A DNA stretch of 64,000 nucleotides from Glycomyces salinus (GTDB lineage: Bacteria > Actinomycetota > Actinomycetes > Mycobacteriales > Micromonosporaceae): the NCBI RefSeq assembly GCF_016428645.1, contig NZ_JAELXW010000020.1, forward strand, positions 1-64,000, read 5' to 3'. Below are positions 9,353 through 60,889 of the stretch, piece after piece. Position 1 is the first letter of the stretch. Every line of letters starts with the position of its first letter. Below the pieces are notes generated by a model. That model was not told the DNA's origin. It did not search any database and saw only the letters and a program-made list of their open reading frames with translations. A program made the translations under genes and the position numbers.

Positions 9353-12085
9353 GTGACCACGGAACAGAACCGGCCGCCCATCAGTGACGGATTGCCGACC
9401 CAAGTGCCGGACACTGACCCAGACGAGACCAGCGAATGGCTGGAGTCTCTCGACGGCCTCCTCGACAGCGGCGGGCGAACTCGGGCCCGATACGTCGTGC
9501 AGCGACTGCTGGAGCACGCGCGCAAGCGACAGATCGCCGTGCCGGCCTCGACCACGACCGACTACGTCAACTCCATTCCGGTCGAGGGCGAGCCCCACTA
9601 CCCCGGGGACGAGGAGATCGAGCACCGCATCCGCGCCTTCGTGCGCTGGAACGCGGCCATGACCGTGCACCGGGCTCAGCGGCCCGGCATCGGCGTGGGA
9701 GGCCACATCTCCACTTACGCCTCGGCCGCCAACCTCTACGAGGTCGGCTACAACCACTTCTTCCGCGGCCGCTCCCACCCCGGCGGCGGCGACCAGGTCT
9801 TCTTCCAGGGCCACGCCTCCCCCGGCATGTACGCCCGCTCCTTCGTGGAAGGGCGCCTGACGGCCGACCAGCTCGACGGCTTCCGCCAGGAGGTCTCCCG
9901 CCCGCAGGGCGGCCTGCCCTCCTACCCCCACCCCCGGCTGATGCCCGACTACTGGCAGTTCCCGACCGTCTCGATGGGCATCGGCCCGATCAACGCGATC
10001 TACCAGGCGCTGTTCAACCGGTACATGCAGGACCGGGGCATCAAGGACACCTCGCAGCAGCATGTGTGGGCGTTCCTCGGCGACGGCGAGATGGACGAGG
10101 TCGAATCGCGGGGAGCGCTCCAGTGGGCCGCCGGAGCCGAGCTCGACAACCTCACCTTCGTCATCAACTGCAACCTCCAGCGCCTCGACGGCCCGGTCCG
10201 CGGCAACGGCAAGATCGTCCAGGAGCTCGAGGCGTACTTCCGCGGCGCGGGCTGGAACGTCATCAAGGTCATCTGGGGCCGCGAGTGGGACCCGCTCCTG
10301 GCCGCCGACAACGACGGTGCGCTGGTCAACCTCATGAACACCACGCCCGACGGCGACTTCCAGACCTTCAAGGCCGAGTCCGGCGCGTTCATCCGCGAGC
10401 ACTTCTTCGGCCGCGACACCCGCACCAAGGCCATGGCCCAGCACCTCAGCGACGACCAGATCTGGGACCTGCGGCGCGGCGGCCACGACGACCGGAAGAT
10501 CTTCGCGGCCTACCGGGCCGCCATGGAGCACGAGGGCCAGCCGACGGTCATCCTCGCGCACACCATCAAGGGCTACCGGCTCGGATCGAGCTTCGAGGGC
10601 CGCAACGCCACCCACCAGATGAAGAAGCTGACGCTTGACGACCTCAAGGGCTTCCGCGACTCGCTCGACATGCCGGTGGAGGACGAGCAGCTCGAGGCCG
10701 ACCCGTACCTGCCGCCGTACATCAAGCCCGAGGAGGGCAGCCCGGAGGCCGAGTACCTCGCCGAGCGGAACGCCCAGCTCGGCGGGTCGATCCCCTCGCG
10801 CCGGAACACGGTCATCCCGCTGAACCTGCCGGGCGAGGACGCCTACAAGTCGGTCAAGCGCGGCTCGGGCAAGCAGAAGGTCGCCACCACCATGGCGCTG
10901 GTTCGCCTGCTCAAGGACCTCATGCGCGACAAGGAGACCGGCAAGCGCTGGGTGCCGATCATCCCCGACGAGGCGCGCACCTTCGGCATGGACGCGATGT
11001 TCCCGACCGCGAAGATCTACTCTCCGCAGGGGCAGCAGTACCTCTCGGTCGACCGCGACCTGTTCCTGTCCTACAAGGAGTCCGAGCAGGGCCAGCTGCT
11101 GCACCTGGGCATCAACGAGGCCGGCTCGATGGCCGCGTTCACCGCCGCCGGGACCGCCGGCGACACGCTCGACGAGCCGATGATCCCGTTCTACATCTTC
11201 TACTCGATGTTCGGGTTCCAGCGCACCGCCGACGCGATCTGGGCGGCCGCCGACCAGCTGTCGAACGGCTTCCTGGTCGGGGCGACCGCCGGGCGCACCA
11301 CGCTCAACGGCGAGGGCCTCCAGCACGAGGACGGCCACTCGATCCTCATGGCCCACACCAACCCGGCCGTGCTCTCCTACGACCCGGCCTTCGGCTACGA
11401 GGCAGGGCACATCGTGAAGGACGGCCTGCGCCGCATGTACGGCGACGGCGAGCACGTCTTCTACTACCTGACCGTCTACAACGAGCCGATCGTGCAGCCG
11501 GCCGAGCCGGAGGGCGTCGACGTCGACGGCATCCTCAGGGGCATCTACCGGCTCTCCGAGTCCTCGGCCCAGGGCCCGCGCGTCCAGCTGCTGGCCTCCG
11601 GCTCGGGCATGCCGTGGGCGCAGAAGGCCGCCGAGCTGCTCGAGTCGGACTGGGGCGTGGCCGCCGACGTCTGGTCGGTCACCTCGTGGTCCGAGCTCAA
11701 CCGCGACGCGGTCGAGGCCGAGAAGCACAACCTGCGCCACCCGGAGGCCGAGAAGCGGATCCCGTACGTGACCGAGAAGCTCTCGGGGGCCCAGGGGCCG
11801 TTCGTGGCCGTCAGCGACTACATGCGCGCGGTACCTGACCTGATCTCCCGGTGGGTACCCGGCGACTACACCTCGCTCGGCACCGACGGCTTCGGCCACT
11901 CCGACACGCGCGGGGCGCTGCGCCGCCACTTCAACGTCGACGGCGAGTCGGTCGCGGTGGCGGCCCTCCAGCAGCTCGCCGCCCGAGGCGAGGCCAAGCC
12001 GGAACTGGCCGCCCAGGCGGCGGCCAAATACCAGATCACCGACCCGACCGCCGCCGAAGCCGGCGAAGCGGGCGGCGACTCCTGA
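9353..12085 (+). CDS. aceE: pyruvate dehydrogenase E1, homodimeric type (910 aa)
   Basis: The thiamine-diphosphate-dependent decarboxylase of the pyruvate dehydrogenase complex; it converts pyruvate and passes the acetyl group to the lipoyl domain of E2. The ThDP/Mg motif is GDGEMDE near residue 245 with the Asn about 27 residues later ([13 protein letters not shown]). The N-terminal region has [18 protein letters not shown] and the C-terminal half carries the transketolase-like domain. I start at the GTG at 9353, preceded by GAGGGA at good spacing, rather than further upstream. The length of 910 fits the roughly 900-residue actinobacterial AceE. It stands alone and ends in a strong hairpin. 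The AGCATATG boxes upstream may control it. Confidence 0.97.
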
Positions 12086-44048: not shown

Positions 44049-44633
44049 TCAGGTCGGCCGGAATCGCCGAGGTGCGATCGTCGCCGCGACTCCTGTGGCC
44101 AGCAGCCCCAAAGCGAGATACGCCGACCACACGTGCCCCGACTCCGTGTTGATCCATGACCACGGGAGCAGCCGTCCGTCGGGAGTTCTTCCAAACGAGA
44201 CCGAAAGGAGCACGACCACTGTCATCAGCGTATTCGCGGTCCTTCCGGCGAAAATTCGCAAGAGGATGAGTGAATATCCGATGACGCCCGCCAGGTTCCG
44301 CACCGCCCGGTCCCACAGCTCGGCATCGGCACCGTCGCCGAGGACCGCACCCGAGACTGCCGTGACTACCAGCACGGTCGCGACCACTGCCAGGTTCAGC
44401 GCGGTCAGCGGTCGCGCCGCAGCCCCCTCCACGTTCTTGTCGGCCGGCTCCATGCTCGAGATCAGCGCGACCGCGACCAACAGGGGCAACACCGTCACCA
44501 GTGGGATCGCCGATGCCGCGCCAACCACCGGTAGCGGAATCGTCCGGGAGCCCACTAGCTCGACTCCCGCGCAGAACACCGCCATCGCCGCCGCGACTGA
44601 CCACAGACGGCGGGACTTCACCCACCAGATCAC
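44049..44633 (-). CDS. polytopic membrane protein (194 aa), exporter-operon partner
   Basis: No recognised family. About five hydrophobic helices are visible, among them WSVAAAMAVFCAGVELV, IPLVTVLPLLVAVALISS and LNLAVVATVLVVTAVSGAVL, and a GxGxxTIAPRRFR tail ends it. Its start overlaps the stop of the larger membrane protein upstream by four bases, so it is the last gene of a three-gene unit with the ABC ATPase. It may be a permease half or immunity protein for the small secreted protein at 46722-47144. Confidence 0.55.
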   Translation of the reverse strand: MIWWVKSRRLWSVAAAMAVFCAGVELVGSRTIPLPVVGAASAIPLVTVLPLLVAVALISSMEPADKNVEGAAARPLTALNLAVVATVLVVTAVSGAVLGDGADAELWDRAVRNLAGVIGYSLILLRIFAGRTANTLMTVVVLLSVSFGRTPDGRLLPWSWINTESGHVWSAYLALGLLATGVAATIAPRRFRPT

Positions 44634-45892
44634 CGTTGCCGCTCCTCAGCCGATCCGGTTCCAGGGCATTCGGCCAGTTCCGCTGCCGCCGAGTCGAACC
44701 ACGCACCCTGGTCAGCGGCGGGCTGGGAAAGCAGATCTTCGAGAGCCGACTTCTGGTCGGGGCCGAGCCTGAAGTCATCGGCGGCCTCGTCCGGTGTGAC
44801 TTCCGCGAGCACAACCTGGATCCATGCGGTCGAGAGGATCTGCATAGCGTAGAACCTGTCTTGGGGGTCGTCGCAGTGGGTGCTGCTCGGTTGAAGGGCC
44901 GAGATCATTGACTTGCGCATCAGATCGGCGTTGAAATCCTCGCGTATGACGAATCTCCACTGGCCGGGTACCGCGCGGTTTCCTTGCCGGAACCCGTTGG
45001 AGAGGTCGACTTCGTACGGCTCGAGTTCCGACGCGATCTGGTCGGCGGTCTGGACCGCCAGCGGCAGAAGTTCGCGGGATTCGGGCCAGACGCAGACCTC
45101 GACACGTGAGGTCTCGCAGGTGAGATCGTCGTCGTCGCGTGCGACGACCGGTATGTATCCCAGTCCGGAAGCGGCGGGGAACGCGATTGCTCCGGCGGTG
45201 GCCACGGCGGCCACGGCGCCGAGTCCGCGCGTCCAGAACCGCCCCAGATCGGACAGCACCAGGATCGCGGCCAGTGCGAACGCGAGAGCCAAAGGCAGTG
45301 AAGCCCATATCAGGGTCGGATCCGGCTGCTGGTCGACCGTGCAGCATTCGGACCATGAGTAGCCGGTCAGGTGACGCCACTTCGGGTCGGTGAGCGCCGC
45401 GGAGCCCGAATAGAGAACGTACCCGCCTATGGCCGCGGCAGGGGCGGCGGCGACTGGCGGTAGATACGCACCCGCTGCTGCACCTACGAGTGTCCATGCG
45501 GAGAGCACCGCCAAGGAGACGACCAACGGCGCGAGATTGAACGAATCGAACGGGTCATCGGCCATTCGCATGGCCGCGGTCAGCATCACCGCCACGGTCC
45601 AGAGACCGCAGGCCCACCCGGGGAGGGTCATTTGGGCCAGGACTCGGAGCCGATTGCGAGCGGGAGCCGTCCTCAGCAGTCCGGATTGGCGCAGCCGTCC
45701 TATGTCCCAGGCGGCCGTAGCCGCCGCGGGCAGGATGGCGAACGGCAGGGAAGCCGCGACATGGCTGGTGACTCCCGGGAAACCGTCGAATCCGGGTGGC
45801 TCCAGGGCGGTCGTGAGGTACCAGCCGAGCAGGGCGAGGATCGGCAGTAGATACAGGCTCGGGGAGGAGGTCCACAGCGTCTTCGCTCGCAC
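44630..45892 (-). CDS. large ABC-associated membrane protein (420 aa)
   Basis: No certain family. Residues 1-270 hold about seven helices (LYLLPILALLGWYL, FAILPAAATAAW, GLWTVAVMLTAAM, VVSLAVLSAWTLVGAAAG and more). The last 150 residues are a soluble domain with conserved-looking Cys pairs (CETSRVEVCVWPES, HCDDPQDRF). I start at the GTG at 45892, one base after the ABC stop. It probably forms the membrane part of the transporter with the ATPase, as bacteriocin-type exporters have, but ABC-2 signatures are not clear. Confidence 0.6.
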   Translation of the reverse strand: MRAKTLWTSSPSLYLLPILALLGWYLTTALEPPGFDGFPGVTSHVAASLPFAILPAAATAAWDIGRLRQSGLLRTAPARNRLRVLAQMTLPGWACGLWTVAVMLTAAMRMADDPFDSFNLAPLVVSLAVLSAWTLVGAAAGAYLPPVAAAPAAAIGGYVLYSGSAALTDPKWRHLTGYSWSECCTVDQQPDPTLIWASLPLALAFALAAILVLSDLGRFWTRGLGAVAAVATAGAIAFPAASGLGYIPVVARDDDDLTCETSRVEVCVWPESRELLPLAVQTADQIASELEPYEVDLSNGFRQGNRAVPGQWRFVIREDFNADLMRKSMISALQPSSTHCDDPQDRFYAMQILSTAWIQVVLAEVTPDEAADDFRLGPDQKSALEDLLSQPAADQGAWFDSAAAELAECPGTGSAEERQR

Positions 45893-45893
45893 G

Positions 45894-46643
45894 TCAGGAC
45901 TCCTGTACCAAGGAACGGTATGCGGCGGCCGCGCGAGCCGAGTCGCTCCCGTCCCGCTCAGCCAGCTCCATGAAGTCCTTCGTAGTGCCCTGGAAGCGCA
46001 CTGAGCCGCCTGCCAGGACCACGACGTGGTCATACTGGGAGCCCATGTCGTCGGTATCGTGGGTGGACACGATGAGGTCGGCGTGCTCGCCGGTCTGAGC
46101 GAGCGTGACTCTCAGATCCTCCCGTTGAAGAGGGTCGAGTCCTGCCGAGGGCTCGTCGAGCATGAGGACCTTCGCGCGATGGACCAGTCCCATTGCGATG
46201 CCCAGGCGTCGGTTCTGACCGCCGGACAACGCCTTGGACGGGCGTTCGGCCAGGTCGGCAAGGCCGACCTTCTCGATCGCGGGCATCGCCGCATCCCAGG
46301 CATCGTGTTTGGGCATGTCCTTGAGCCATCCGGCGTAGGCGACCTGCTCTCGCACGTTGAGACCCGGCATGGCGTTGACGCGCTGCGGGACCCAGCCGAC
46401 GTTGCGGCGGAAAGCCGCCTGTTCCCGACGGCGAGACGGTCGCAGTTCTCCGAAGTACACCTGCCCCTCTTTGGGCATGACGGCTGAGGCCAGGAGGGCC
46501 ATCATCGTGGATTTTCCGGCCCCATTTGGCCCCAGTAGAAGCGTGCGTCCCGTGTCGAACTGAACGGAAAGCCCGTCGAACACGCGATGCTCTCGGAACA
46601 GGGGACGGTACGAGAATCGGCAGTCACGCATACCGAATTCCAA
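45894..46643 (-). CDS. ABC transporter ATP-binding protein (249 aa)
   Basis: A complete ATPase. Walker A is LLLGPNGAGKSTMM near residue 36, the Q-loop region is VGWVPQRVNAM, the signature is LSGGQNRRL and Walker B is VLMLDEPSAGLDP with STHDTDD after it. The start is TTG at 46643, with GAGAGGAACG upstream; an in-frame ATG four codons later is possible. The membrane protein follows after one base. A perfect hairpin lies before it, after the secreted protein gene, and could lower its expression relative to that gene. Confidence 0.85.
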   Translation of the reverse strand: MEFGMRDCRFSYRPLFREHRVFDGLSVQFDTGRTLLLGPNGAGKSTMMALLASAVMPKEGQVYFGELRPSRRREQAAFRRNVGWVPQRVNAMPGLNVREQVAYAGWLKDMPKHDAWDAAMPAIEKVGLADLAERPSKALSGGQNRRLGIAMGLVHRAKVLMLDEPSAGLDPLQREDLRVTLAQTGEHADLIVSTHDTDDMGSQYDHVVVLAGGSVRFQGTTKDFMELAERDGSDSARAAAAYRSLVQES

Positions 46644-50688: not shown

Positions 50689-51009
50689 ATGACTGACATC
50701 CACCGATCAAGATCAATGGCTCCGGCCGGGCTCGACCGCGGGCGGTTCAGCGACGGCGTCCGCCGCTTCACCGTCCGGGCCTCCGGCCCGGACGCTCCGG
50801 ACTCATTCCAGGTCCATGCGGACGGCAATCGTGCCGAGGTGGTGCTCGTGGTCTCGGGCATCAACACCGGAGAACTCCGCGCCACCTGGGGTCCGCACTG
50901 GCGCACCGCGTCCGAGTCCTGGCGGGACTGGTTCGAGGCCAGTTCCTTCATGGTCTTCTACAACGGCCAGGGCCCAGCGGCCGGAAGCGTGAGGCTGTGC
51001 AGTGGCTGA
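50689..51009 (+). CDS. unrecognised small protein (106 aa)
   Basis: No family recognised. A beta-rich, Trp- and Ser-rich sequence with FRSxGVRRFTVRASGPDAPDSFQ-like start and ATWGPHWRTASESWRDWFEAS in the middle. The ATG at 50689 has a textbook GGGAGGAG eight bases upstream, which is strong evidence that it is expressed. The stop overlaps the start of the next gene (GTGGCTGA), so they are translated together. It stands between the DUF5753 gene and IS5-like debris. Confidence 0.65.
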   Translation: MTDIHRSRSMAPAGLDRGRFSDGVRRFTVRASGPDAPDSFQVHADGNRAEVVLVVSGINTGELRATWGPHWRTASESWRDWFEASSFMVFYNGQGPAAGSVRLCSG

Positions 51010-51256
51010 AGCCGACATGATCGACTCCTATATGGGCGAGTTCCGGCGCGGCCCGGCCGTCTTCGTCGTCTTCCGGTTCGACCCGGACTCCTACCGGGTC
51101 GACTGCGATGACGGCAACGGCCCGTCCCAGGTCTGCCGCATCCCCGCCGACCGAACCGAGGCGATCCGCTGGCATGGGCCCTGGAACGGCGACCGCTGGT
51201 GCTCCTGGATCGCGGCCGAGGCCCGCAAGATCATCACCGACCCCGAAACCGGATAA
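51002..51256 (+). CDS. unrecognised small protein (84 aa), coupled to previous
   Basis: No family recognised. Begins MAEADMIDSYMGEFRRGPAVFVVFRFDPDSYRVDCDDG and ends WIAAEARKIITDPETG; acidic, with paired Cys in VDCDDG and SQVCRI. The GTG start lies inside the end of the previous gene, so it is translationally coupled. Nothing marks its role. Downstream begins IS5-like debris at about 51374. Confidence 0.6.
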   Translation: MAEADMIDSYMGEFRRGPAVFVVFRFDPDSYRVDCDDGNGPSQVCRIPADRTEAIRWHGPWNGDRWCSWIAAEARKIITDPETG

Positions 51257-51373
51257 CCGGCCACCGGGCCACTGGGCTGCCAAGCTCGGGTGCGGCGGTG
51301 GGGCCATGCCGTTGTTCGCGTCCCTGCCGGACGCAGGTCCTCCACAGCACCGCCGCACCCGACCCGACTCCGC

Positions 51374-51845
51374 GCACGCCCAAGTAGGTAGTCCCGTGTC
51401 CGGTATGGGGTTGTTGGCTCCCTTCATGAGTCGGCCGAAGCAGGTCATGGCGGCAGCGAGGGTGCCCATGGCCAGGTAGTCGTGGCTGCGGCGTTCGTAT
51501 CGAGGGCTCAAGCGGCGGAAGCCGGTCAGCCAGGAGAACGTGCGCTCGATGACCCACCGGTGGCGGCCCGGGCGCTGGGACGATTCGATCTCCTTCCGGG
51601 CCATCCGGGGGGGGTGATGCCCCGCTTCCGCAGCGCGGCGCGGCAATCATCGTAGTCGTATCCCTTGTCACCGTGGAGTTTGTCCGGGCAGTGCCATGGC
51701 CTGCCGAAACGCTGCCTGATGGGACCGATCTTATCGACCGTGCGCCCCAGGAGGCGCTTGTCGCGGACGCCTGCGGCGCTGACCTCGACACTGAGAGGCA
51801 GGCCGATTCGGTCGGTCGTGGCGTGGATTTTCGCGGCTCTTCTTA
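51374..51845 (-). mobile_element. IS5-like transposase remnant
   Basis: Minus-strand reading gives KIHATTDRIGLPLSVEVSA, VDKIGPIRQRFGRPWHCP, KLHGDKGYDYDDCRAALRKRG and RHRWVIERTFSWLTGFRRL, the second half of an IS5-family transposase. The first half is missing. An eight-G run at 51607-51614 breaks the frame between GITPP and the IARKGIESS-like part. Its C-terminal edge contains CACGCCCAAGTAGGTAGTCC, which recurs as an isolated end at 63769-63793. It lies between the small coupled genes and the lanthipeptide cluster. Confidence 0.8.
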
Positions 51846-52160: not shown

Positions 52161-52225
52161 GAGTCTCGTACGAATGCCGGACGGCCGACTGATGTCCCGC
52201 CGATGACGCTCTCGTGCGAATCTAT

Positions 52226-52255
52226 TGCACATTTCATGCACACCCCACTGAGGAT
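52226..52255 (+). promoter_or_regulatory. SARP-type box and -10 before lanA1
   Basis: TGCACAT at 52226-52232 and TGCACAC at 52237-52243 are heptamers at 11-base pitch. Six bases later comes GAGGAT at 52250-52255, a -10-like element. The same layout recurs before lanA2. SARP regulators bind 11-bp-spaced heptamers next to the -10, and a SARP gene lies in this cluster. Confidence 0.6.
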
Positions 52256-52293
52256 CGGTCGGAAAACCCACTTCATCAGAAGGAGCCGAGCCC

Positions 52294-52503
52294 ATGGACG
52301 ACATACGCGCCTGGAAGCGTCCGGAGGAGCGAACCGCCGCAGCGGACGGCACTCACCCCGCAGGATTGGTCGATCTCGACGAAGATCTCGCCGAGCGGGC
52401 TTTGGGCGGCGGCACGGTCAATGCGACCGCGACGCTGAGCCCGCTCTGCGGCACCGCGACACCGCTCTGCGCCTCCACGAGCCTGAACCTCACCTGCGCC
52501 TGA
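52294..52503 (+). CDS. lanA1: lanthipeptide precursor 1 (69 aa)
   Basis: A ribosomal precursor whose leader follows the mersacidin/lichenicidin pattern: RAWKRPEER near the N-terminus, then HPAGLVDLDEDL, and ERALGGG at the end of the leader. The core begins after the GG motif and is rich in Thr and Ser with three Cys (SPLC, TPLC and LTCA contexts). The ATG at 52294 has AAGGAG ten bases before it. The core could form three lanthionine-type rings; I make no claim about topology. It resembles a beta-type component of two-peptide systems more than an alpha type. A SARP-type box precedes the promoter. Confidence 0.85.
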   Translation: MDDIRAWKRPEERTAAADGTHPAGLVDLDEDLAERALGGGTVNATATLSPLCGTATPLCASTSLNLTCA

Positions 52504-52604
52504 TCCCCACGCTCGAATACCACGGGTACCTAACTGAGGAGCATCTCACATCTTCCGCGCTGCAATAGAACCGTCGGTTCCAGAGGCGGCCGTTGCGGAA
52601 CTGA

Positions 52605-52634
52605 TGCAAATCTCTTGCCACATCCGCTGAAGAT
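52605..52634 (+). promoter_or_regulatory. SARP-type box and -10 before lanA2
   Basis: TGCAAAT at 52605-52611 and TGCCACA at 52616-52622 stand 11 bases apart. Exactly six bases later is GAAGAT at 52629-52634. This repeats the lanA1 arrangement with the same spacing. A 160-base leader with a hairpin separates it from lanA2. Confidence 0.6.
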
Positions 52635-52694
52635 CAGATCCATCGGACCCATCGGGACGACGACAGAAGGCGTTCCGATCGGACCGATGCGAGC

Positions 52695-52732
52695 GGGGAT
52701 GGACCGTTCCCTCTGACCGGGGGTCCATCCCC
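52695..52732 (+). terminator. hairpin (attenuator-like) before lanA2
   Basis: GGGGATGGACC pairs perfectly with GGTCCATCCCC across a 16-base loop. It lies between the lanA2 promoter box and the lanA2 start, within the expected 5' leader. It may attenuate or stabilise the operon mRNA, or stop read-through from lanA1. Confidence 0.6.
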
Positions 52733-52794
52733 TCCCACGGGCCCTACCAAGGGTTCGTGGCCATACCACCCTACCTCGAGAAAGAGGTCGTCAC

Positions 52795-53019
52795 ATGAAC
52801 GACATTCGCGCTTGGAAGGACCCCGAACGCCGGCACGAGCTGGGCGGCGACGTCCAGGACAACCCGGCCGGCCTGGTGGATCTCAACGACGACGCCGTCC
52901 TCGACGTCACCGGCGGCACCTCGTGGTGGTGCGCCACGGTCGCCCTCACCGCCACCTTCTGCTCTCCCACCGGAACCATGTGCGGCAGCTGCCAATTCGG
53001 CACCCGCGGCTGCTGCTGA
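52795..53019 (+). CDS. lanA2: lanthipeptide precursor 2 (74 aa)
   Basis: The leader shares RAWKDPERR, then NPAGLVDLNDDAVLDVTGG, with the cut expected after GG. The core starts TSWWCATVALTATFC and continues SPTGTMCGSCQFGTRGCC. The SWWC-ATV-LTA-FC part resembles lichenicidin-beta-type cores (SWTC-ITAG-TVSASLC). It has six Cys and about ten Ser/Thr, so up to six rings or disulfides are possible. The ATG follows GAAAGAGG. The gap to lanA3 is 17 bases, so they share a transcript. Confidence 0.88.
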   Translation: MNDIRAWKDPERRHELGGDVQDNPAGLVDLNDDAVLDVTGGTSWWCATVALTATFCSPTGTMCGSCQFGTRGCC

Positions 53020-53036
53020 TCCAGAAAGGACATCGC

Positions 53037-53270
53037 ATGGACACCGTGCGCGCTTGGAAAGAACCCGAGTACCGCCGTTCCCTAGGCGAAACGGCCCCCG
53101 AGCACCCCGCCGGGACCGGCTTGACGGAAATCGACGAGCTCGCTCTCGGCGAGGTCGCCGGTGCCGCCGGAACCCATCACATCTGGACCGGAGGCTGCTG
53201 CTGGTGCCTTCCCTGGTACTCGGGCATCACCGTCTGCGGCTTGGCCTGCGACGTGCCTACCTGCACGTAG
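53037..53270 (+). CDS. lanA3: lanthipeptide precursor 3, Cys-rich (77 aa)
   Basis: The leader repeats the scheme: RAWKEPEYRRSL, HPAGTGLTEIDEL, then LGEVAGAAG. The core (about THHIWTGGCCWCLPWY then SGITVCGLACDVPTCT) has six Cys and only six Thr/Ser, with a CC and a WC pair at the front. In two-component systems the alpha peptide usually has a CTLTxEC lipid II site; here the equivalent reads CGLACD, so the motif is absent. The leader site GA/AG instead of a clean GG is also unusual. The ATG has AAAGGA upstream. Confidence 0.82.
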   Translation: MDTVRAWKEPEYRRSLGETAPEHPAGTGLTEIDELALGEVAGAAGTHHIWTGGCCWCLPWYSGITVCGLACDVPTCT

Positions 53271-53357
53271 CGACCACAAGAGGGGCGGCGGTGCGCCGAC
53301 CGCCGCCCCGGCCATCGAGACACCGACCGCCTTCCCACAACTTGGATTGGAACCGCC

Positions 53358-56300
53358 ATGGACCGCATACCGCCCCAAGGTCCCGAGCTCCCCTGGCACC
53401 TTGCCGCGACACTGCCCGAGCGTCTCGAGTGGGGAACAGAGCCAAGCGAGAGCGACTACCAGCGTGCGGTGCGCCGTCTGGAGATGTGGGCCGAACTCAA
53501 GTGTTTCAGGGAGGAGGGGCGCGGAATCGCCGAGTGGTTGGACTCCGCGGGCCTGACGTTGGAGGACTTCAGCGGTCTCCTGGGGGAGACTGAGGTGTCG
53601 TTGCGGGCGCGTCGACCCGAAGAGCCCGATTGGCATCAGTCATTTCGGCGCTGGTGGAGCAGCGGTCGGCAGGCTGAGGCACGTCGGGTCCACGGCGACT
53701 TGCGGATGCTCGAGTGGGCCCGGCCGCTTCTCGAAGGCGCTCTCGAAGAGCTCGAGGCCAGGCTCGCCGCGATCGTGACCGAGCAGAACGACCCGGTCTT
53801 CGCGGACGCACATGTCGTCGAGCGCTTCTTGGAGACCGTGCCACTCAAGCACCTCCAGAGGTACATGCAGCGGGTATCCGTTCTGGAGCTCAACGTGTTC
53901 CGGGTCGAAGGGCGCCTTTCCGGCGACGACCCCTCCGCCCGCTTCGCAGATTTCTGCCGTCAGTTGTCAGAGGACGCCGCAGCGGTGCCGCTGTGGGAGG
54001 AGTACGTCGTACTCGCACGCCTGGTCGTCACGCAACTACGGTACTGGATGGAGACCCAGGTCGAACTGCTCACACACCTTGCGGACGACCTCGACACGAT
54101 CCGCACTGGCATTCCAAGCCTGAAGGACGCCGCGCGGCTCGAGTCCATCGGCATCGGCGAGGGCGACCGCCACCACCACGGCCGCTCGGTGTGCATCCTC
54201 CACTTCGACCAGGGCTCGGTCGTCTACAAGCCGCGATCCCTCACCATGGACATGGCGTACAACGGCCTCATCGACTGGATCAACGCGCAAGGCCTCAGAC
54301 TCGACCTGGCCGCCGTCACTACCGTCGACCGCGGCGACCACGGCTGGGTGCGATTCCTGCGGTCCGATCGAACCGTCGGCACCGACGGTGTCGACCGTTT
54401 CGCCTGGCGCACCGGCGCGCTCGCCGCGATCCTCTACGCGCTGCACGCCACCGACTTCCACTTCGAGAACGTCATCGCCGACGGCGAGTACCCGGTCCTG
54501 GTGGACTTGGAGACGCTCCTCCACTCCGACAAGACCGATGCCGTGGCCAAAGTGGAGGGCACCAGCGACGCCGCGGCCGTAGCGCTCGCCCAGTCGGTCC
54601 ACTCGACCGGACTGCTCCCCAATCCGATCGTCATGCGCGATCGCGACGGCACCCACGCGCTCGACATGTCGGGCGCCTCCGGCCACGGAGGCCAGCTCAC
54701 CCCGATGCCCGTGCCGGACTGGGATGGCGCCGAAACCGACACGATGAGACTGGTCAAGCGCCGCATGGAGATGGACGCCGAAAACAATCTCGCCGTCGCC
54801 GAGGATGGATCCAGTATCGACATAGCCCAGCGCCGCGGCGCCGTCTCCGCAGGGTTCAGCGAGGTCTACGACCTCCTGCAGCGGCGCGCGGCGGAACTCC
54901 TCGCCGACGGCGGGCCGATCGCGGCATTCGAGTCCCTGCACACCAGGCACATCGCCCGAGCCACGCACGTCTACGGCACCGTGCTGCTCGAGAGCACACA
55001 CCCCGACTTCCTCCGCGACGGACTCGACCGCGACCGGTCCCTCGCGCGGCTCCGCACCGGCCACGAGTCTCGGCCCGAGCAGAACGCCATGATCGCCGCC
55101 GAGACAGCCGAACTCGCCAACGGGGACGTGCCCGTGTTCACGATCGAAACCTCGACGGGAACTCTGTACGGGGGTACCCCGCCACGGCCGATCGGCGAAC
55201 GGGGGCGTCCGATCGAGGCGGTCCGGAAGCGCATCGGCGGGCTCGCCGAGGCCGACCACCTGCGCCAGAAGTGGATCATCGACGCCGCGCTCGCCGCCAC
55301 CACCATGACCGGCAAGGAGGCCCGCTGGCCGAACTGGTCTCAGCCGCTGCCCTCCGAGCCCGCAGAGGCGGGAGACTTCGAGGAAACGGCGCTCACCGTC
55401 GCGAAGCGCATCCAATCGCTCCTCATCCGCGGGGACGACACTATTGGCTGGCTCGGCCTGGACCTCTACGACGAGCAGCACTGGATGGTCGCCCCCACGC
55501 CACTCGGGCTTTACAATGGCGTCAGTGGGATCACCCACGCCCTCGACGCTGTCGCCACGGTCACCGGCAACCGCGCCCTCACCGATGAGGTGCAGCGGCT
55601 CGACGACTACCTTGTCGCACGCGCCCATCTGCTCGGCCGTATCGTCGACGATCCCGAGACGGCGCCCGACATCAAGTTGACCCCGATAGGCGCGTTCAAC
55701 GAGACGGCCGGGACCGTGTACGCGCTCGCCCACGCCGCCGTCAGGCATGGCCGCGAGGACTGCGCCGAGGCCGCGATGAAACTGGCACCGATCCTCGACC
55801 TCCTAGTGGACCAGGACGTCAGTTTCGACATCGTCTCAGGGGCCGCGGGCCTGATCCTCGTCATGGAGTCCCTGGAAGCCGCCGCCCCAGGGCGCGGCGC
55901 GCTCGACCTCGCCCGCAAGGCCGGCGAACGCCTGCTCGAAGCCCGACTCGACCTCGGCGACGACGGCTGGGCCTGGGCGGGCCCGTCCAACGGCGGCGTC
56001 CCCCTCAACGGGTTCTCGCACGGCACCGCCGGCATCGCCGCCGCGTTCGCCCGGCTCAACGCGATCAGTCCCGACGAGCGGTACCCGGAGGCGATCGAGC
56101 GCGCGCTCGCCTACGAAGCCTCCACGTTCGACCGCGAGAACGGGGTGTGGACAGATCTGCGGATCGACAACCCCGGCGGCCGCACCGTCATGAACGCCTG
56201 GTGCCACGGCGCGCCGGGCATCGGGCTCGCCCGCAGGATGATCCGCGACGCCGGAGGCCACGGGCTCGACCTCGAGCGGCTCCGGTCCGAACAGGACCGG

Positions 56301-56636
56301 GCGGCTGTGATTCTCAACGCCGCCGGCTGGGACGGAGACCCCGTTACCGGGACCGGCAACCACTCGATTTGCCACGGCGACGTCGGCAACCTGCTCATCC
56401 TCGACACCATCGTCGATGACGACAGCATCCGCGAGCGCCTGCCCCGCCTCTGGAAGGCCATCATCGCCGACGGGACCGGCAACGGCTGGCTCTGCGGCGT
56501 CCCGCACGGGGTCGAGACACCAGGACTCATGACGGGCCTCGCCGGCATAGCCTGGGGACTCGCCCGCAAGGCGGACCCGACGCTCGTCCCCGACCTGCTC
56601 CGGCTCGAGGCCCCGGTGGTGCGGGATGACCGATAA
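53358..56636 (+). CDS. lanM: class II lanthipeptide synthetase LanM (1092 aa)
   Basis: A bifunctional enzyme: the N-terminal half (DUF4135) dehydrates Ser/Thr by phosphorylation and elimination, and the C-terminal LanC-like half forms rings. The dehydratase shows VVYKPRSLTMDMAYN, LHATDFHFENVIADGEYPVLVDLETLLH and RHIARATHVYG. The cyclase zinc ligands are visible as Cys in NAWCHGAPGIG near residue 949 and Cys-His in SICHGDVGN near 1005. The length is typical of LanM. It lies 87 bases after lanA3 and overlaps the next gene's start by 11 bases. It is the only LanM here, so it probably processes all three precursors. Confidence 0.95.
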   Translation: MDRIPPQGPELPWHLAATLPERLEWGTEPSESDYQRAVRRLEMWAELKCFREEGRGIAEWLDSAGLTLEDFSGLLGETEVSLRARRPEEPDWHQSFRRWWSSGRQAEARRVHGDLRMLEWARPLLEGALEELEARLAAIVTEQNDPVFADAHVVERFLETVPLKHLQRYMQRVSVLELNVFRVEGRLSGDDPSARFADFCRQLSEDAAAVPLWEEYVVLARLVVTQLRYWMETQVELLTHLADDLDTIRTGIPSLKDAARLESIGIGEGDRHHHGRSVCILHFDQGSVVYKPRSLTMDMAYNGLIDWINAQGLRLDLAAVTTVDRGDHGWVRFLRSDRTVGTDGVDRFAWRTGALAAILYALHATDFHFENVIADGEYPVLVDLETLLHSDKTDAVAKVEGTSDAAAVALAQSVHSTGLLPNPIVMRDRDGTHALDMSGASGHGGQLTPMPVPDWDGAETDTMRLVKRRMEMDAENNLAVAEDGSSIDIAQRRGAVSAGFSEVYDLLQRRAAELLADGGPIAAFESLHTRHIARATHVYGTVLLESTHPDFLRDGLDRDRSLARLRTGHESRPEQNAMIAAETAELANGDVPVFTIETSTGTLYGGTPPRPIGERGRPIEAVRKRIGGLAEADHLRQKWIIDAALAATTMTGKEARWPNWSQPLPSEPAEAGDFEETALTVAKRIQSLLIRGDDTIGWLGLDLYDEQHWMVAPTPLGLYNGVSGITHALDAVATVTGNRALTDEVQRLDDYLVARAHLLGRIVDDPETAPDIKLTPIGAFNETAGTVYALAHAAVRHGREDCAEAAMKLAPILDLLVDQDVSFDIVSGAAGLILVMESLEAAAPGRGALDLARKAGERLLEARLDLGDDGWAWAGPSNGGVPLNGFSHGTAGIAAAFARLNAISPDERYPEAIERALAYEASTFDRENGVWTDLRIDNPGGRTVMNAWCHGAPGIGLARRMIRDAGGHGLDLERLRSEQDRAAVILNAAGWDGDPVTGTGNHSICHGDVGNLLILDTIVDDDSIRERLPRLWKAIIADGTGNGWLCGVPHGVETPGLMTGLAGIAWGLARKADPTLVPDLLRLEAPVVRDDR

Positions 56637-57114
56637 TGAGCGGCCCGGACTCTACCGGCAGGAGGCGGTAGACGCCTACACGCGCCTCGACGGACGCGAC
56701 GCCGCGCCGGATTTCGACCCGGGTGCGGCGATGCCGCGACGCCGCTCGATCGTCGCCGGAGTCCTGTGCATGGCGGCGCTCGTCGCGAGCGGACTCGCTT
56801 ACCGTGTCGACCGCGGGCCCGGCGCCATGGTCGTCTACACCGACGAGGAGTCCATCGTCCTCGCTTTCACCGAGCCGCCACCGGACCTGGTGGGCGAACG
56901 GGTCGTCATGACGCTTCCCGACGGCGGCGAGATCGAGGGCACCGGCGTCCAGAGCGAGCAGGCCACCGCAGGTGGGGGCATCACCGCGACCACGGTCATG
57001 GTCGAACTCGACTCTCCCGGCTCCGCCGACAGCAGCTACGGCGAGACCGTCCTGGTCAACGCCGAAGCGGTGCCGCTGCTGCTGGACCTGTTCGACGACG
57101 AGGAAGGGGCCTGA
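56626..57114 (+). CDS. short adaptor-like membrane protein of the cluster (162 aa)
   Basis: One membrane helix at about residues 40-58 (RRRSIVAGVLCMAALVASGLAY) precedes an extracellular part. The segment GERVVMTLPDGGEIEGTGV with ITATTVMVELD, then VLVNAEAVPLLL, resembles the final beta domain of HlyD-type periplasmic adaptors. The coiled-coil and peptidoglycan-binding parts are missing. The ATG overlaps the lanM stop, so it is coupled. It may assist LanT at the outer face or protect the producer; neither is shown. Confidence 0.6.
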   Translation: MTDNERPGLYRQEAVDAYTRLDGRDAAPDFDPGAAMPRRRSIVAGVLCMAALVASGLAYRVDRGPGAMVVYTDEESIVLAFTEPPPDLVGERVVMTLPDGGEIEGTGVQSEQATAGGGITATTVMVELDSPGSADSSYGETVLVNAEAVPLLLDLFDDEEGA

Positions 57115-57116
57115 AC

Positions 57117-59258
57117 GTGCGCCGTCCGAAGGTCCCGCTCCAACTCCAAGCCTCGCAGACCGAATGCGGCGCCGCCGCGCTCGCGATGGTCCTCGGCTAC
57201 TACGGCCGGCACACACGGACCTCTGAGATCCGCGATGCCCTGGGCTTGGCTCGCGACGGTGCCAGCGCGGCCCAGATCCTCGCGCAGGCCCGCGAACACG
57301 GCTTGAGGACGAAGTCCTACCGGGCAGAGCCCGATGCACTCCGTGAGCTCGTCATCCCGATGATCGTGCACTGGGAGATGAGCCATTTCGTGATTCTGGA
57401 GTCGTTCACGGACGACGGCGTCGTCATCGTCGACCCCGCCCAGGGCCGCCTCCGTCTCACCGACGCCGAGTTCAGTGCCAAGTTCACTGGGATCGTCTTG
57501 GAGATGTACCCCGACGAGGGCTTCGAGTTCCGGCGACGCAAGGGCTTCGGGGCGTTGTCGTTCATCCTGCCACACCTGCCGCGCAACCCGGGCGTTCTGG
57601 GCCTGATCGTCTTCGCTTCAGCCGCGCTGACGCTGCTCGGGCTCTTTCCGGCCTTCCTCACTGGATACGTCATCGATCGGGTGTTGCCCACGCGCGCCGA
57701 GGATCTGCTGTGGGTGCTAGCGGGCGGCGCCATCACCTTCGCGCTGACGCATGGTCTGGTCACGCTGGCCCGGTCCGAGCTGCTGCTGTGGATGCAGACA
57801 CGCACCGACTGGTCCATGATGACCGGCTTCCTGCGCCACCTCATGTCGCTGCCATATCGGTTCTTCCAGATCCGTTCCAGCGGTGACATCATCGTGCGTG
57901 TCTCCTCGACCTCGTTCGTCCGAGACCTGCTCAGCAGCCAGATCCTCGCGATCGCACTCGACCTGGTCCTCCTGGTCGTCTACCTCGCGGTGATCGGGCT
58001 CCATTCGCTCCTGTTCGTGGGGATCCTCCTAACGGTGGCAGTCGCGCAACTCGCGCTCATGGCCGCCACCGCGGGGAAGGCTCAGCGACTGACCGAACGC
58101 GAACTGCATTACCTGGGCGAGGCGCAGTCTACGATGTTCGAAGCAGTCGGCAGCGCCGAGACGGTGAAGGCGTCCGGCGCCGAGGCCGTCATGGTCCGTC
58201 GCTGGTCGCACCGCTTCGCGTCGCAGCTCCAGGCATCGCTGCGCCGCCAGCGACTCGACAACGTGATCGACGCCACCATGACGCTCATCGCCGTCCTCAC
58301 GCCGATGCTGCTGCTCACCTCCGGTGCGGCACTCGCGTTCCAGGGAATCCTGTCGGTCGGCACACTGATGACACTCATCGCCTTGTCGGCCGCTGCACTG
58401 TCGCCTGTCACGCAGCTCGGCCGCAATTTCAAGAACTTCCAGATCGTGCGCGTCCACCTCGACCGACTCCGCGATGTCCTCGAAGAACCGCCCGAACAGG
58501 ACGGCGCCGACCGGCCCGCACCGGATCTGAACGCGCCCATCGAGGTTGCGAAAGTCGCCTTCAGCTATTCTGGAAACGGGCCCCTCGTCCTCCGGGACAT
58601 CGCCTTCACGCTCGAACCGGGCACCACCACTGCGATCGTCGGGGGCACCGGGGCCGGTAAATCCACGCTCGCCCGGATCGTCCTCGGTCTCTACAAGCCG
58701 ACCGAGGGAGCGATCCGATTCGGCGAGCTCGACCTGGAAAGCGCAGACCTGGCAGAACTGCGCCGGCGCACCGGGATCGTCACCCAGGATACCGATCTGT
58801 TCAGCGGTACGATCCTGTCGAACCTCACCATCGGCGCCGAGGCCACCGAATTCGGCGATGTCGTCGCGGCCGCGCGGCTCGCATGCGTCCACGACGACAT
58901 CGTCACCGCGCCGATGGCGTACGACACGGTTCTCGGCGAGGGCGGCTCAGGCCTGTCCGGCGGGCAGCGACAGCGGCTCGCGCTCGCCCGCGCGCTCGTG
59001 CGGCGACCCCGGCTGCTCCTGCTCGACGAAGCAACCTCACACCTCGACGCGGTTACCGAGCAGCGCGTGCACACCAACTTGCGCACACTGGACTGCACCA
59101 AGGTGATCATCGCGCATCGTCTCTCCACCGTGCGCGACGCGGACACCATCCTCGCGCTCGACAGGGGACGGATCGTGGAATCGGGGACGCACGACGAACT
59201 GGTCGCGCGCGGCGGCGTGTACGCCGAGCTCATCGAACGACAGCTTCAGACCGTATGA
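57117..59258 (+). CDS. lanT: LanT: C39 peptidase-ABC exporter (713 aa)
   Basis: A leader-cutting ABC transporter. The N-terminal C39 peptidase has the catalytic Cys in QTECGAAALAMVLGYYG (residue 17), His in HWEMSHFVILES near 88 and Asp in VDPAQGRL. Six membrane helices follow at about 160-430. The ATPase has Walker A VGGTGAGKST, signature LSGGQRQRLALARAL and Walker B LLLLDEATSHLD. The start is GTG at 57117, three bases after the preceding stop. It likely cuts after the GG-type sites and exports the modified peptides. Confidence 0.94.
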   Translation: MRRPKVPLQLQASQTECGAAALAMVLGYYGRHTRTSEIRDALGLARDGASAAQILAQAREHGLRTKSYRAEPDALRELVIPMIVHWEMSHFVILESFTDDGVVIVDPAQGRLRLTDAEFSAKFTGIVLEMYPDEGFEFRRRKGFGALSFILPHLPRNPGVLGLIVFASAALTLLGLFPAFLTGYVIDRVLPTRAEDLLWVLAGGAITFALTHGLVTLARSELLLWMQTRTDWSMMTGFLRHLMSLPYRFFQIRSSGDIIVRVSSTSFVRDLLSSQILAIALDLVLLVVYLAVIGLHSLLFVGILLTVAVAQLALMAATAGKAQRLTERELHYLGEAQSTMFEAVGSAETVKASGAEAVMVRRWSHRFASQLQASLRRQRLDNVIDATMTLIAVLTPMLLLTSGAALAFQGILSVGTLMTLIALSAAALSPVTQLGRNFKNFQIVRVHLDRLRDVLEEPPEQDGADRPAPDLNAPIEVAKVAFSYSGNGPLVLRDIAFTLEPGTTTAIVGGTGAGKSTLARIVLGLYKPTEGAIRFGELDLESADLAELRRRTGIVTQDTDLFSGTILSNLTIGAEATEFGDVVAAARLACVHDDIVTAPMAYDTVLGEGGSGLSGGQRQRLALARALVRRPRLLLLDEATSHLDAVTEQRVHTNLRTLDCTKVIIAHRLSTVRDADTILALDRGRIVESGTHDELVARGGVYAELIERQLQTV

Positions 59259-59268
59259 AGGACAGGAC

Positions 59269-59745
59269 ATGCCGCTGCAAGTGATGGATCGGCTCCGCCA
59301 CGAGAGCGCGAACGCCGCCGGAGCCGCGCTGACCGTCTGGTTGACGTTGAGGATGCCGGCCACAGTCGGGCACGATGCCGTGACGGCGCCGATGGCGGCG
59401 GCGTTCGTCGCGCCACTGGTGGTCGTCTCGATCCACTTCGGCGCCGAATCCCGCCGAATGGTGCAGCAGACCCGTCCAAGGGACACGCGCCTGCTGCGGC
59501 TCGCCTGGGCTCTCTGCGTCGCACTTGTTCTCGGCGCGGTCGCCGATCTTGCCTGGAGATGGTCCGCGCTCGGCGGCGTGGAGCGGTTCTCGACCATGTC
59601 GGTCATGATTGGAGCGGCGCTGTCCTATGTCGGCTGCTTCCACCGCCGGATCGCGTGGACTTCAGCGGGCCGCCCGCGACTTGCGCGGAGTTCGATCCGC
59701 CAGCGGATCGACAGGGGAACGACGTCGCGGTCGAGTCGATCCTGA
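59269..59745 (+). CDS. small polytopic membrane protein, possible immunity (158 aa)
   Basis: Four hydrophobic helices: AAGAALTVWLTLRMP, AVTAPMAAAFVAPLVVVSI, LLRLAWALCVALVLGAVADLAW and MSVMIGAALSYVGCF, then a basic Ser/Arg tail. No family match is evident. The ATG at 59269 with GAAGGAC upstream is 10 bases after lanT, so it is the last gene of the operon. Small membrane proteins in this position often provide self-protection, but that is inference. Confidence 0.6.
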   Translation: MPLQVMDRLRHESANAAGAALTVWLTLRMPATVGHDAVTAPMAAAFVAPLVVVSIHFGAESRRMVQQTRPRDTRLLRLAWALCVALVLGAVADLAWRWSALGGVERFSTMSVMIGAALSYVGCFHRRIAWTSAGRPRLARSSIRQRIDRGTTSRSSRS

Positions 59746-59810
59746 CCGTTCGGGTGCTCGTGAAACGCATCATCGGACGATGTCGCACAACGGTGCTTCG
59801 GCACCTGCGA

Positions 59811-60626
59811 TTACAGTCGCGTGAGCACTTCTCGGACCACCGCGGCGGTTCCGGGCGCGTCCCCTTCGAGGATCGCCGTCTGGAGGCGCTGAACCGTCGA
59901 GGGGAGACCCACGCCGTAGTCCCGGTGGCGGTGCAGCAGTCGCTGGATCCCGTCGAGCGAGCTGAGCCGGTCGCCCGCGAGGAAGCTTGCAGCGACCGCG
60001 AGCTCGGCGAGCTGCGGGTCCTCGCCGGTGCCGGCCCGAGCCTCCGAATGAGCTTCCTGGTAGGACCCGATGACGATGTGCAGCGCGACCGAGAGCCGCC
60101 GCAGGGACCGCCGCGTGTTCGCGAGGGAGGTCTTGACTCCCGTGAACCAGTTCGTCGCGGGGAAGTCCACGCCGAAGCCCTCCAAGTCGAGCGCCAGCAG
60201 GTCCCGGCAGCCGGCGAGAGCCACCACAGGATCCTCGGAGACTCGCCCCCGCACTGTCCTCAGCCGGTGCTCCAATGCCAGAAGATCCACATGGGACGGA
60301 TCGATCTCCAGGCTGTAGCCGCCCTCACCGCCCCAGGCCGCACGATGCGTTACCACCCGCACCTCGTTCCCCAAACTGGCCGACTGAGTCGCAGACCGGA
60401 CCCGCGCGACGAGGGTGCGGACATTGGCACGCGCGGTCACCGGAGGCTCGTCCCAGAGGACGTGCGCGAGCTTGGTCTGCGTGACCACGTGGCTCGGCTG
60501 GAGTGCGAGCACCGCCAGGAGCGCCCTCGCCCGAGCGGGCCGCAGCGTCTCGGCACCATCGCGACCCATGAGGCTCACGGGCGGCAGGAGCTGGACGAGA
60601 AACGGACGGACAAGAGACTCAGGCAA
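59811..60626 (-). CDS. SARP-family transcriptional activator (271 aa)
   Basis: Streptomyces-antibiotic-regulatory-protein type. An OmpR-like winged helix is at about 25-100 (LRPARARALLAVLALQPSHVVTQTKLAHVLWDEPPVTARANVRTLVARVR in pieces). The bacterial transcriptional activation domain begins YSLEIDPSHVDLLALEHRL near residue 105. The start is TTG at 60626, with AGGAG five bases before. It faces the lan operon end to end. SARP boxes before lanA1 and lanA2 make it the likely activator of the whole cluster. Confidence 0.88.
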   Translation of the reverse strand: MPESLVRPFLVQLLPPVSLMGRDGAETLRPARARALLAVLALQPSHVVTQTKLAHVLWDEPPVTARANVRTLVARVRSATQSASLGNEVRVVTHRAAWGGEGGYSLEIDPSHVDLLALEHRLRTVRGRVSEDPVVALAGCRDLLALDLEGFGVDFPATNWFTGVKTSLANTRRSLRRLSVALHIVIGSYQEAHSEARAGTGEDPQLAELAVAASFLAGDRLSSLDGIQRLLHRHRDYGVGLPSTVQRLQTAILEGDAPGTAAVVREVLTRL

Positions 60627-60696: not shown

Positions 60697-60889
60697 ATCA
60701 TGCTCGAACATCGTTCGGATTCTATTGCGACCTGCCTGAATCTAGAGCCCCAGCGCACAGATCAAGCACGAGTTATGCACGGATCCTCCCCGCCTGCTCG
60801 GCGCACTGGCGGTACTCGCCACCGGAGGCATCGTTCTATGGAGACCCGGGTCATTGGTGCGTGGAACTGAGGCACGCTCGACCACCTCG

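Follow-up and report, generated by a model that had tools for sequence, protein, structure and literature searches.

A probable two-component lantibiotic cluster of the roseocin family with an additional precursor gene in Glycomyces salinus

Gene content and layout of the cluster

The window (the whole 64,000-nt stretch of DNA analysed) is part of a 120.7-kb contig in the 5.4-Mb draft genome of Glycomyces salinus (211 contigs). Its three lanA genes are accompanied by a single LanM, a LanT of the C39-ABC type, a SARP-like gene and two small membrane proteins (Table 1). An earlier note made from the sequence alone had described a class II lanthipeptide cluster of three precursors next to one LanM, and this description holds: the open reading frames are present, and the draft genome contains a single LanM match at E ≤ 0.001. 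In profile searches the LanM was recognised by TIGR03897 (737 bits), with CHG at residues 949 and 1005, and LanT by its C39 peptidase and ABC domains.

Table 1. Genes and sequence features of the cluster (window coordinates)
Feature	Position	Strand	Remarks
TGC-N8-TGC-N8-TGC, SARP-box-like	52215..52239	+	upstream of lanA1; GAGGAT (candidate -10) 10 nt on
lanA1	52294..52503	+	69 aa; orphan third precursor
TGC-N8-TGC-N8-TGC, SARP-box-like	52594..52618	+	upstream of lanA2; GAAGAT (candidate -10) 10 nt on
Hairpin, likely lanA2 5' UTR	52695..52732	+	GGGGATGGACC...GGTCCATCCCC; shared with Glycomyces harbinensis L036
lanA2	52795..53019	+	74 aa; predicted roseocin-beta-type precursor; core end GSCQFGTRGCC
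lanA3	53037..53270	+	77 aa; predicted roseocin-alpha-type precursor; core GTHHIWTGGCC...
lanM	53358..56636	+	class II lanthionine synthetase, CHG motifs; placed in roseocin type-2-like clade
Small protein, one likely TM segment (by eye)	56626..57114	+	conserved in relatives
lanT	57111..59258	+	peptidase C39-ABC transporter; predicted leader removal and export
Second small protein, apparently membrane	59269..59745	+	match in L036
SARP-like regulator	59811..60626	-	Pfam Trans_reg_C
TGC-N8-TGC-N8-TGC	60755..60779	-	~130 nt upstream of SARP-like gene

The run from lanA2 to the second small protein is closely spaced on one strand, as the note had it: lanA3 and lanM are separated by 87 nt, lanM, the first small protein and lanT overlap, and the second small protein starts 10 nt further on. 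lanA1 stands apart. Its distance to lanA2 is 291 nt, which places it upstream of the likely lanA2 promoter region and outside the tight operon.

The first small protein is 47% identical to its counterpart in G. harbinensis (L036) and 30–32% identical to those in Streptomyces L031, L033 and L034; the label 'adaptor' that it had been given is backed by neither a Pfam (E ≤ 1) nor an NCBIfam (E ≤ 10) family. The second small protein, 38.5% identical to its L036 counterpart, is a possible immunity protein. A gene does lie on the opposite strand where a SARP had been proposed. Its identity as a SARP was borne out in part: Trans_reg_C was recognised with 27.1 bits (cut-off 26.2), the SARP model gave 23.2 bits, far under its cut-off of 500, and a BTAD domain was absent from the Pfam and NCBIfam results. 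It is therefore called SARP-like here.

Relationship to roseocin

Roseocin, from Streptomyces roseosporus, is presented in excerpts of a 2023 paper (PMC10027976, cited throughout from these excerpts) as the only example among actinobacteria in which one LanM serves two synergistic precursors. The core motifs given there are S/TxxxxTxGCC for alpha and GS/TxxxxS/TxGCC for beta precursors; lanA3 contains the alpha motif near the N-terminus of its core (THHIWTGGCC), and lanA2 contains the beta motif (GSCQFGTRGCC). Beta and alpha precursors were then picked from related loci by these published motifs (16 and 15, including the window's own), and those of the window were removed before profiles were built (from 15 and 14). 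On the beta profile lanA2 scored 99.1 bits, and on the alpha profile lanA3 scored 101.8 bits, against best scores of 65.4 and 74.9 among 1000 decoys that joined each gene's own leader to a shuffled core; on the opposite profiles, neither exceeded its decoys. Because the two sets were chosen by the published motifs, the profile and motif tests are not independent of each other. Since the profile scores exceed all decoys, lanA2 is, as judged from sequence, a roseocin-beta-type precursor and lanA3 a roseocin-alpha-type precursor.

The cores share 25/33 (beta) and 20/35 (alpha) alignment columns with those of Streptomyces. In the alpha alignment, Ser/Thr at positions 2, 7, 18 and 21 and the first five Cys are in register, so that lanA3 has Ser/Thr at all four positions that are dehydrated in roseocin alpha (Ser2, Thr7, Ser18 and Thr21; PMC10027976). 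The order of lanA2 (beta) and lanA3 (alpha) is that of RosA1-beta and RosA2-alpha in the same excerpts. The roseocin fragment SGVLGTLGCC quoted there was found in Streptomyces loci L031–L034, which ties these loci to roseocin. TIGR03898 (mersacidin/lichenicidin type 2, cut-off 23.5) recognised lanA3 (48.0 bits) and lanA2 (33.8 bits) and was missed by lanA1, which reached 21.3 bits. The three cores had been thought unrelated to one another: lanA2 and lanA3 turn out to match a characterised family, as roseocin beta and alpha respectively, and the description is still apt for lanA1, whose core fits neither profile. Position 8 of the lanA3 core is Gly, where the type-2-like relatives considered here have Leu, Phe or Met; for Leu8 of roseocin alpha, the sole natural changes reported in the set of PMC10027976, as excerpted, are Ile, Phe and Trp.

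In a tree of 37 LanMs, the window grouped with Glycomyces harbinensis (100/100) and, within an eight-member clade (100/100), with G034 and five Streptomyces; the program flagged an unusual letter make-up in the G034 and G. harbinensis rows. The set included Streptomyces LanMs whose alpha precursor contains SGVLGTLGCC; RosM was not among its sequences, and the clade is accordingly labelled 'type-2-like'. By its sequence, the window LanM is placed in this roseocin type-2-like clade. The seven type-2-like loci besides the window (L031, L032, L033, L034, L035, L036 and L088) each contain exactly two precursors, beta then alpha, as determined with a leader profile over ~7–9 kb on each side of lanM.

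The window thus has in common with roseocin and the type-2 clusters a single CHG-type LanM and its clade, a beta followed by an alpha precursor with both core motifs, a small hypothetical protein, a bifunctional LanT and a regulator. It differs in the addition of lanA1, a third precursor where type 2 has two per cluster, in Gly8 instead of Leu8 in alpha, and in that the ABC pair of the relatives was not found. G. harbinensis L036 has the closest LanM (67%), the genes from lanA2 to the second small protein in identical order, the hairpin in the 5' UTR and the TGC triple, but it is without lanA1 and has an ABC pair downstream, and its SARP-like gene is upstream and divergent, whereas that of the window is convergent at the 3' end. 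Lacticin 3147-type systems have two dedicated LanMs, and their alpha peptide contains CTxTxD/EC (PMC10027976); the window, in contrast, has one LanM, and lanA3 is without this motif. Taken together, the locus is probably a type-2-like, two-component lantibiotic cluster of the roseocin family that carries one added precursor.

The ABC pair of L036 (15191-16947) consists of an ABC-2 permease and an ATPase located after lanT. Pairs are also present in L031, L033, L035 and L088 (33–37% for the permease and 50–57% for the ATPase relative to L036), and they likely serve self-immunity. A search of the window with the L036 ATPase yielded, besides lanT, only an unrelated ABC ATPase (45894-46643; about 30%), and that with the permease nothing below E 3, leaving no close counterpart of the pair there. 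The best match to the permease in the whole genome (25%, E = 0.003) was not convincing; as the genome is a draft, absence of the permease is not proven. An ABC ATPase and an adjoining permease-like gene (by eye) lie at 44630-46643 on the reverse strand, ~6 kb left of lanA1, and these genes near 44.6–46.6 kb could stand in for the pair of the relatives.

TGC repeats and putative SARP control

SARP targets are described, in excerpts of PMC10936776 and PMC10972967, as directly repeated sequences, spaced by 11 or 22 bp and close to the -10 element. Repeats of the 11-bp type are present upstream of the predicted SARP target genes of the cluster. The spacing of TGC pairs was counted over nine upstream regions of 250 nt each, namely those of lanA1 and lanA2 in the window and of the beta genes of L031–L036 and L088. 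A spacing of 11 bp was found in 9/9, 22 bp in 6/9, 33 bp in 4/9 and any other in at most 2/9, the Streptomyces regions among them being related rather than independent. Full TGC triples occur in six of the nine, and L032–L034 have two of the three TGCs. A tenth upstream region, from L095 outside the clade, contains none and was excluded from the spacing count. The GANGAT hexamer follows the last TGC by 10 nt in lanA1, lanA2 and L036.

A random 400-bp stretch held a TGC triple in 0.8–1.5% of draws. The window contains four triples against 0.58 expected, and at least four were reached in 1/100 shuffles; three of them precede lanA1, lanA2 and the SARP-like gene, and the fourth is inside an oxidoreductase-like gene (by eye). 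As the pattern was first noticed by eye in an alignment already holding lanA1, the site at the SARP-like gene is the only independent hit. The lanA2 upstream region aligns with that of L036 (score 84, shuffles at most 31). That of lanA1 gave no alignment above shuffles with any other region (against lanA2: score 22, reached by 21/200), and it therefore shares the TGC spacing only.

SARP-like matches of 26–36% identity were found near the cluster in all six type-2-like loci searched (L036, L088, L031, L033, L034 and L035, with L032 left out); outside the clade, matches were weaker in three of four loci and absent from the fourth, L087. The TGC pattern before lanA1 and lanA2 favours their co-expression as predicted from sequence, and because the repeats precede lanA1, lanA2 and the beta genes of the relatives, lanA1 may encode a co-regulated third product. 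Across the clade, the 11-bp TGC repeat offers a testable SARP target.

A hairpin common to the window and G. harbinensis lies between the repeat region and lanA2. In folding calculations its z was -2.5 in the window and -3.7 in L036 (8276-8322), and it could be an element of RNA control or stability.

The additional precursor gene lanA1

The precursors had been said to share mersacidin/lichenicidin-type leader motifs, which we can confirm: lanA1 has RAWKRPEER and HPAG, lanA2 RAWKDPERR and NPAG, and lanA3 RAWKEPEYR and HPAG, and not one of 2000 shuffles attained any of the pairwise leader scores. On a leader profile built without window sequences, lanA1 scored 21.5 bits, lanA2 43.8, lanA3 58.1 and four left-out relatives 53.6–69.9. 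The lanA1 leader is the most divergent among those compared and, being far from the others, may be modified poorly. The 30 aa that follow GG make up the lanA1 core; they include 3 Cys, 10 Ser/Thr and the [ST]-P-L-C motif twice (SPLC and TPLC); [ST]-P-x-C rings presumably recall nisin ring B. The gene is preceded by a Shine-Dalgarno-like AAGGAG and has a third-codon-position GC of 0.80. lanA1 thus looks like a real gene on sequence criteria, and its kin were not recognised.

Kinship of the lanA1 core with either roseocin family was not supported, the score on the beta profile (32.9 bits) being reached by 32% of decoys and that on the alpha profile (24.0 bits) by 21% (p 0.32 and 0.21). A comparison of the core with the C-termini of 54 distinct other precursors in a census yielded nothing (best p 0.034, uncorrected for 54 tests). 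The L082 peptide, alike by eye, aligns with lanA1 over 4 residues only, and a plasmid search with lanA1 returned seven records with a best E of about 2, as expected by chance.

A lanA1 search of 354 GTDB-family genomes, including its own and 21 congeners, matched 28 genomes at E ≤ 0.01: its own (lanA1 and lanA2) and 27 others. Loci from 19 of the 27 were examined and comprised four beta genes, seven members of a short peptide family of genus g4 and eight in which the motif filter recognised no precursor. In four more of the 27, the match falls by its coordinates on a known beta gene. Within the genus, lanA1 matches G012 alone, via its beta gene. No lanA1 orthologue was recognised among the 354 genomes, no match examined covering its core as an orthologue would. 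By leader profile, lanA1 is also missing from all seven type-2-like relatives (0/7 as far as examined). The earlier note had regarded such an absence of a precursor from relatives as telling against its proposal, and it was found here for lanA1.

These findings bear on whether lanA1 is a strongly diverged beta duplicate that acts as an alternative beta peptide, a reading we regard as unlikely. Its leader scores 89 to lanA2 against 72 to lanA3, and 24.0 bits on the beta-leader against 20.0 on the alpha-leader profile; its two best non-self matches are beta genes (its own lanA2 and that of G012), and its mean global core score against seven beta cores was reached by 4% of 2000 shuffles. However, the core is not above decoys on the beta profile, local pairwise comparison gave p 0.13, the best single global core score was reached by 20% of shuffles, and lanA1 is without the C-terminal GCC motif. 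The third precursor of type-1 clusters has been placed near alpha, not beta (PMC10027976).

It is somewhat unlikely that lanA1 is a decaying or fast-drifting leftover of recombination, little expressed, poorly modified and functionless. The divergent leader, which misses the TIGR03898 cut-off, the failure to recognise an orthologue in the family genomes or the type-2-like relatives, and a partial transposase ORF just upstream are all consistent with such a relic. Yet lanA1 retains an open frame, a ribosome site, the GG leader end and three Cys with 10 Ser/Thr, and its upstream TGC triple and -10-like GAGGAT are spaced as before lanA2. The transposase ORF (50948-51646) lies immediately left of lanA1 in a stretch of lower GC and matches DDE_Tnp_1 only at its end (profile positions 158–198 of 200); together with the lower GC it is consistent with rearrangement at the edge of the cluster.

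The basis in hand for the preferred reading, a two-component cluster with one added precursor, is homology, gene order, motif conservation and the repeat pattern, from which we infer regulation, modification, export, activity and any role of lanA1. The SARP-like protein would switch on lanA1, lanA2 and its own gene by binding the 11-bp-spaced TGC repeats that precede each; the single LanM would dehydrate Ser/Thr and close thioether rings in the cores; LanT would cut after the GG/GA site and export the peptides; and alpha (lanA3) and beta (lanA2) would then, as has been published for roseocin, jointly hit Gram-positive bacteria. The product of lanA1 is most likely another lanthipeptide, of different structure, made via the same LanM and LanT, and either an independent third product or a part in a three-component system is possible.

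A true three-component lantibiotic, in which the lanA1 product is needed together with, or strengthens, alpha and beta, would be in keeping with the one LanM and LanT, the common leader type and the common TGC spacing, and such a system has been raised for type-1 clusters in PMC10027976. We consider it quite unlikely, as all seven type-2-like relatives manage without lanA1, and alpha and beta alone suffice for roseocin activity (PMC10027976, Table 1). A more specific version, in which one SARP-like switch drives a three-component lantibiotic and the [ST]-P-L-C-bearing lanA1 peptide joins or tunes the alpha/beta pair, is likewise quite unlikely.

The number of precursors, which the earlier note had thought unusual, has precedents. 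Type-1 roseocin-family clusters, for example in S. rhizosphaericus, combine one LanM with three precursors, the third being LanA2A (PMC10027976), and as in the window the third core is unlike the other two; since a three-component idea has also been published for them, the present arrangement is of limited surprise. In contrast to type 1, the window LanM groups with type-2-like loci in a tree that holds no type-1 sequence, and LanA2A, known here by description only, is placed near alpha peptides and not beta (PMC10027976), whereas the lanA1 core fits neither profile (alpha p 0.21). The excerpts of PMC10027976 leave open whether third precursors in the roseocin family are partners, spare parts or relics. 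Because most of the cluster is ordinary, lanA1 is the part worth testing, and the locus provides a clean case in which the alpha and beta genes are near-standard and an extra gene, with its own upstream region, can be deleted or separately expressed.

Clusters with three precursors were also sought by LanM searches of 151 relatives, 394 class genomes, 354 family genomes, 392 genomes of the genus of G481 (taken as Streptomyces) and 81 relatives of G1146, and loci above chosen E-value limits were examined with flanks of 1.5 kb, or 14–19 kb for 20 of them. No other roseocin-type three-precursor cluster was recognised among these loci. A Streptomyces search of 264 genomes returned only genomes already found, apparently the same set re-sampled. 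In plasmids, LanM identity was at most 35.9% among the matches listed (20 of 193), and no paper describing the Glycomyces cluster was apparent among those listed by literature searches. One family genome (L092) combines three precursors bearing near-identical leaders with one LanM, in a different precursor family; these precursors, at 10282-11201, have differing short cores. In several genomes of genus g4 in the GTDB family, alpha and beta occur together with two LanMs, as in the published type 3, and the short precursor family of this genus, with the core AAATTGHTTACCHCVC, was seen in seven genomes (L103 at 1489-1671, L100, L101 and L104–L107).
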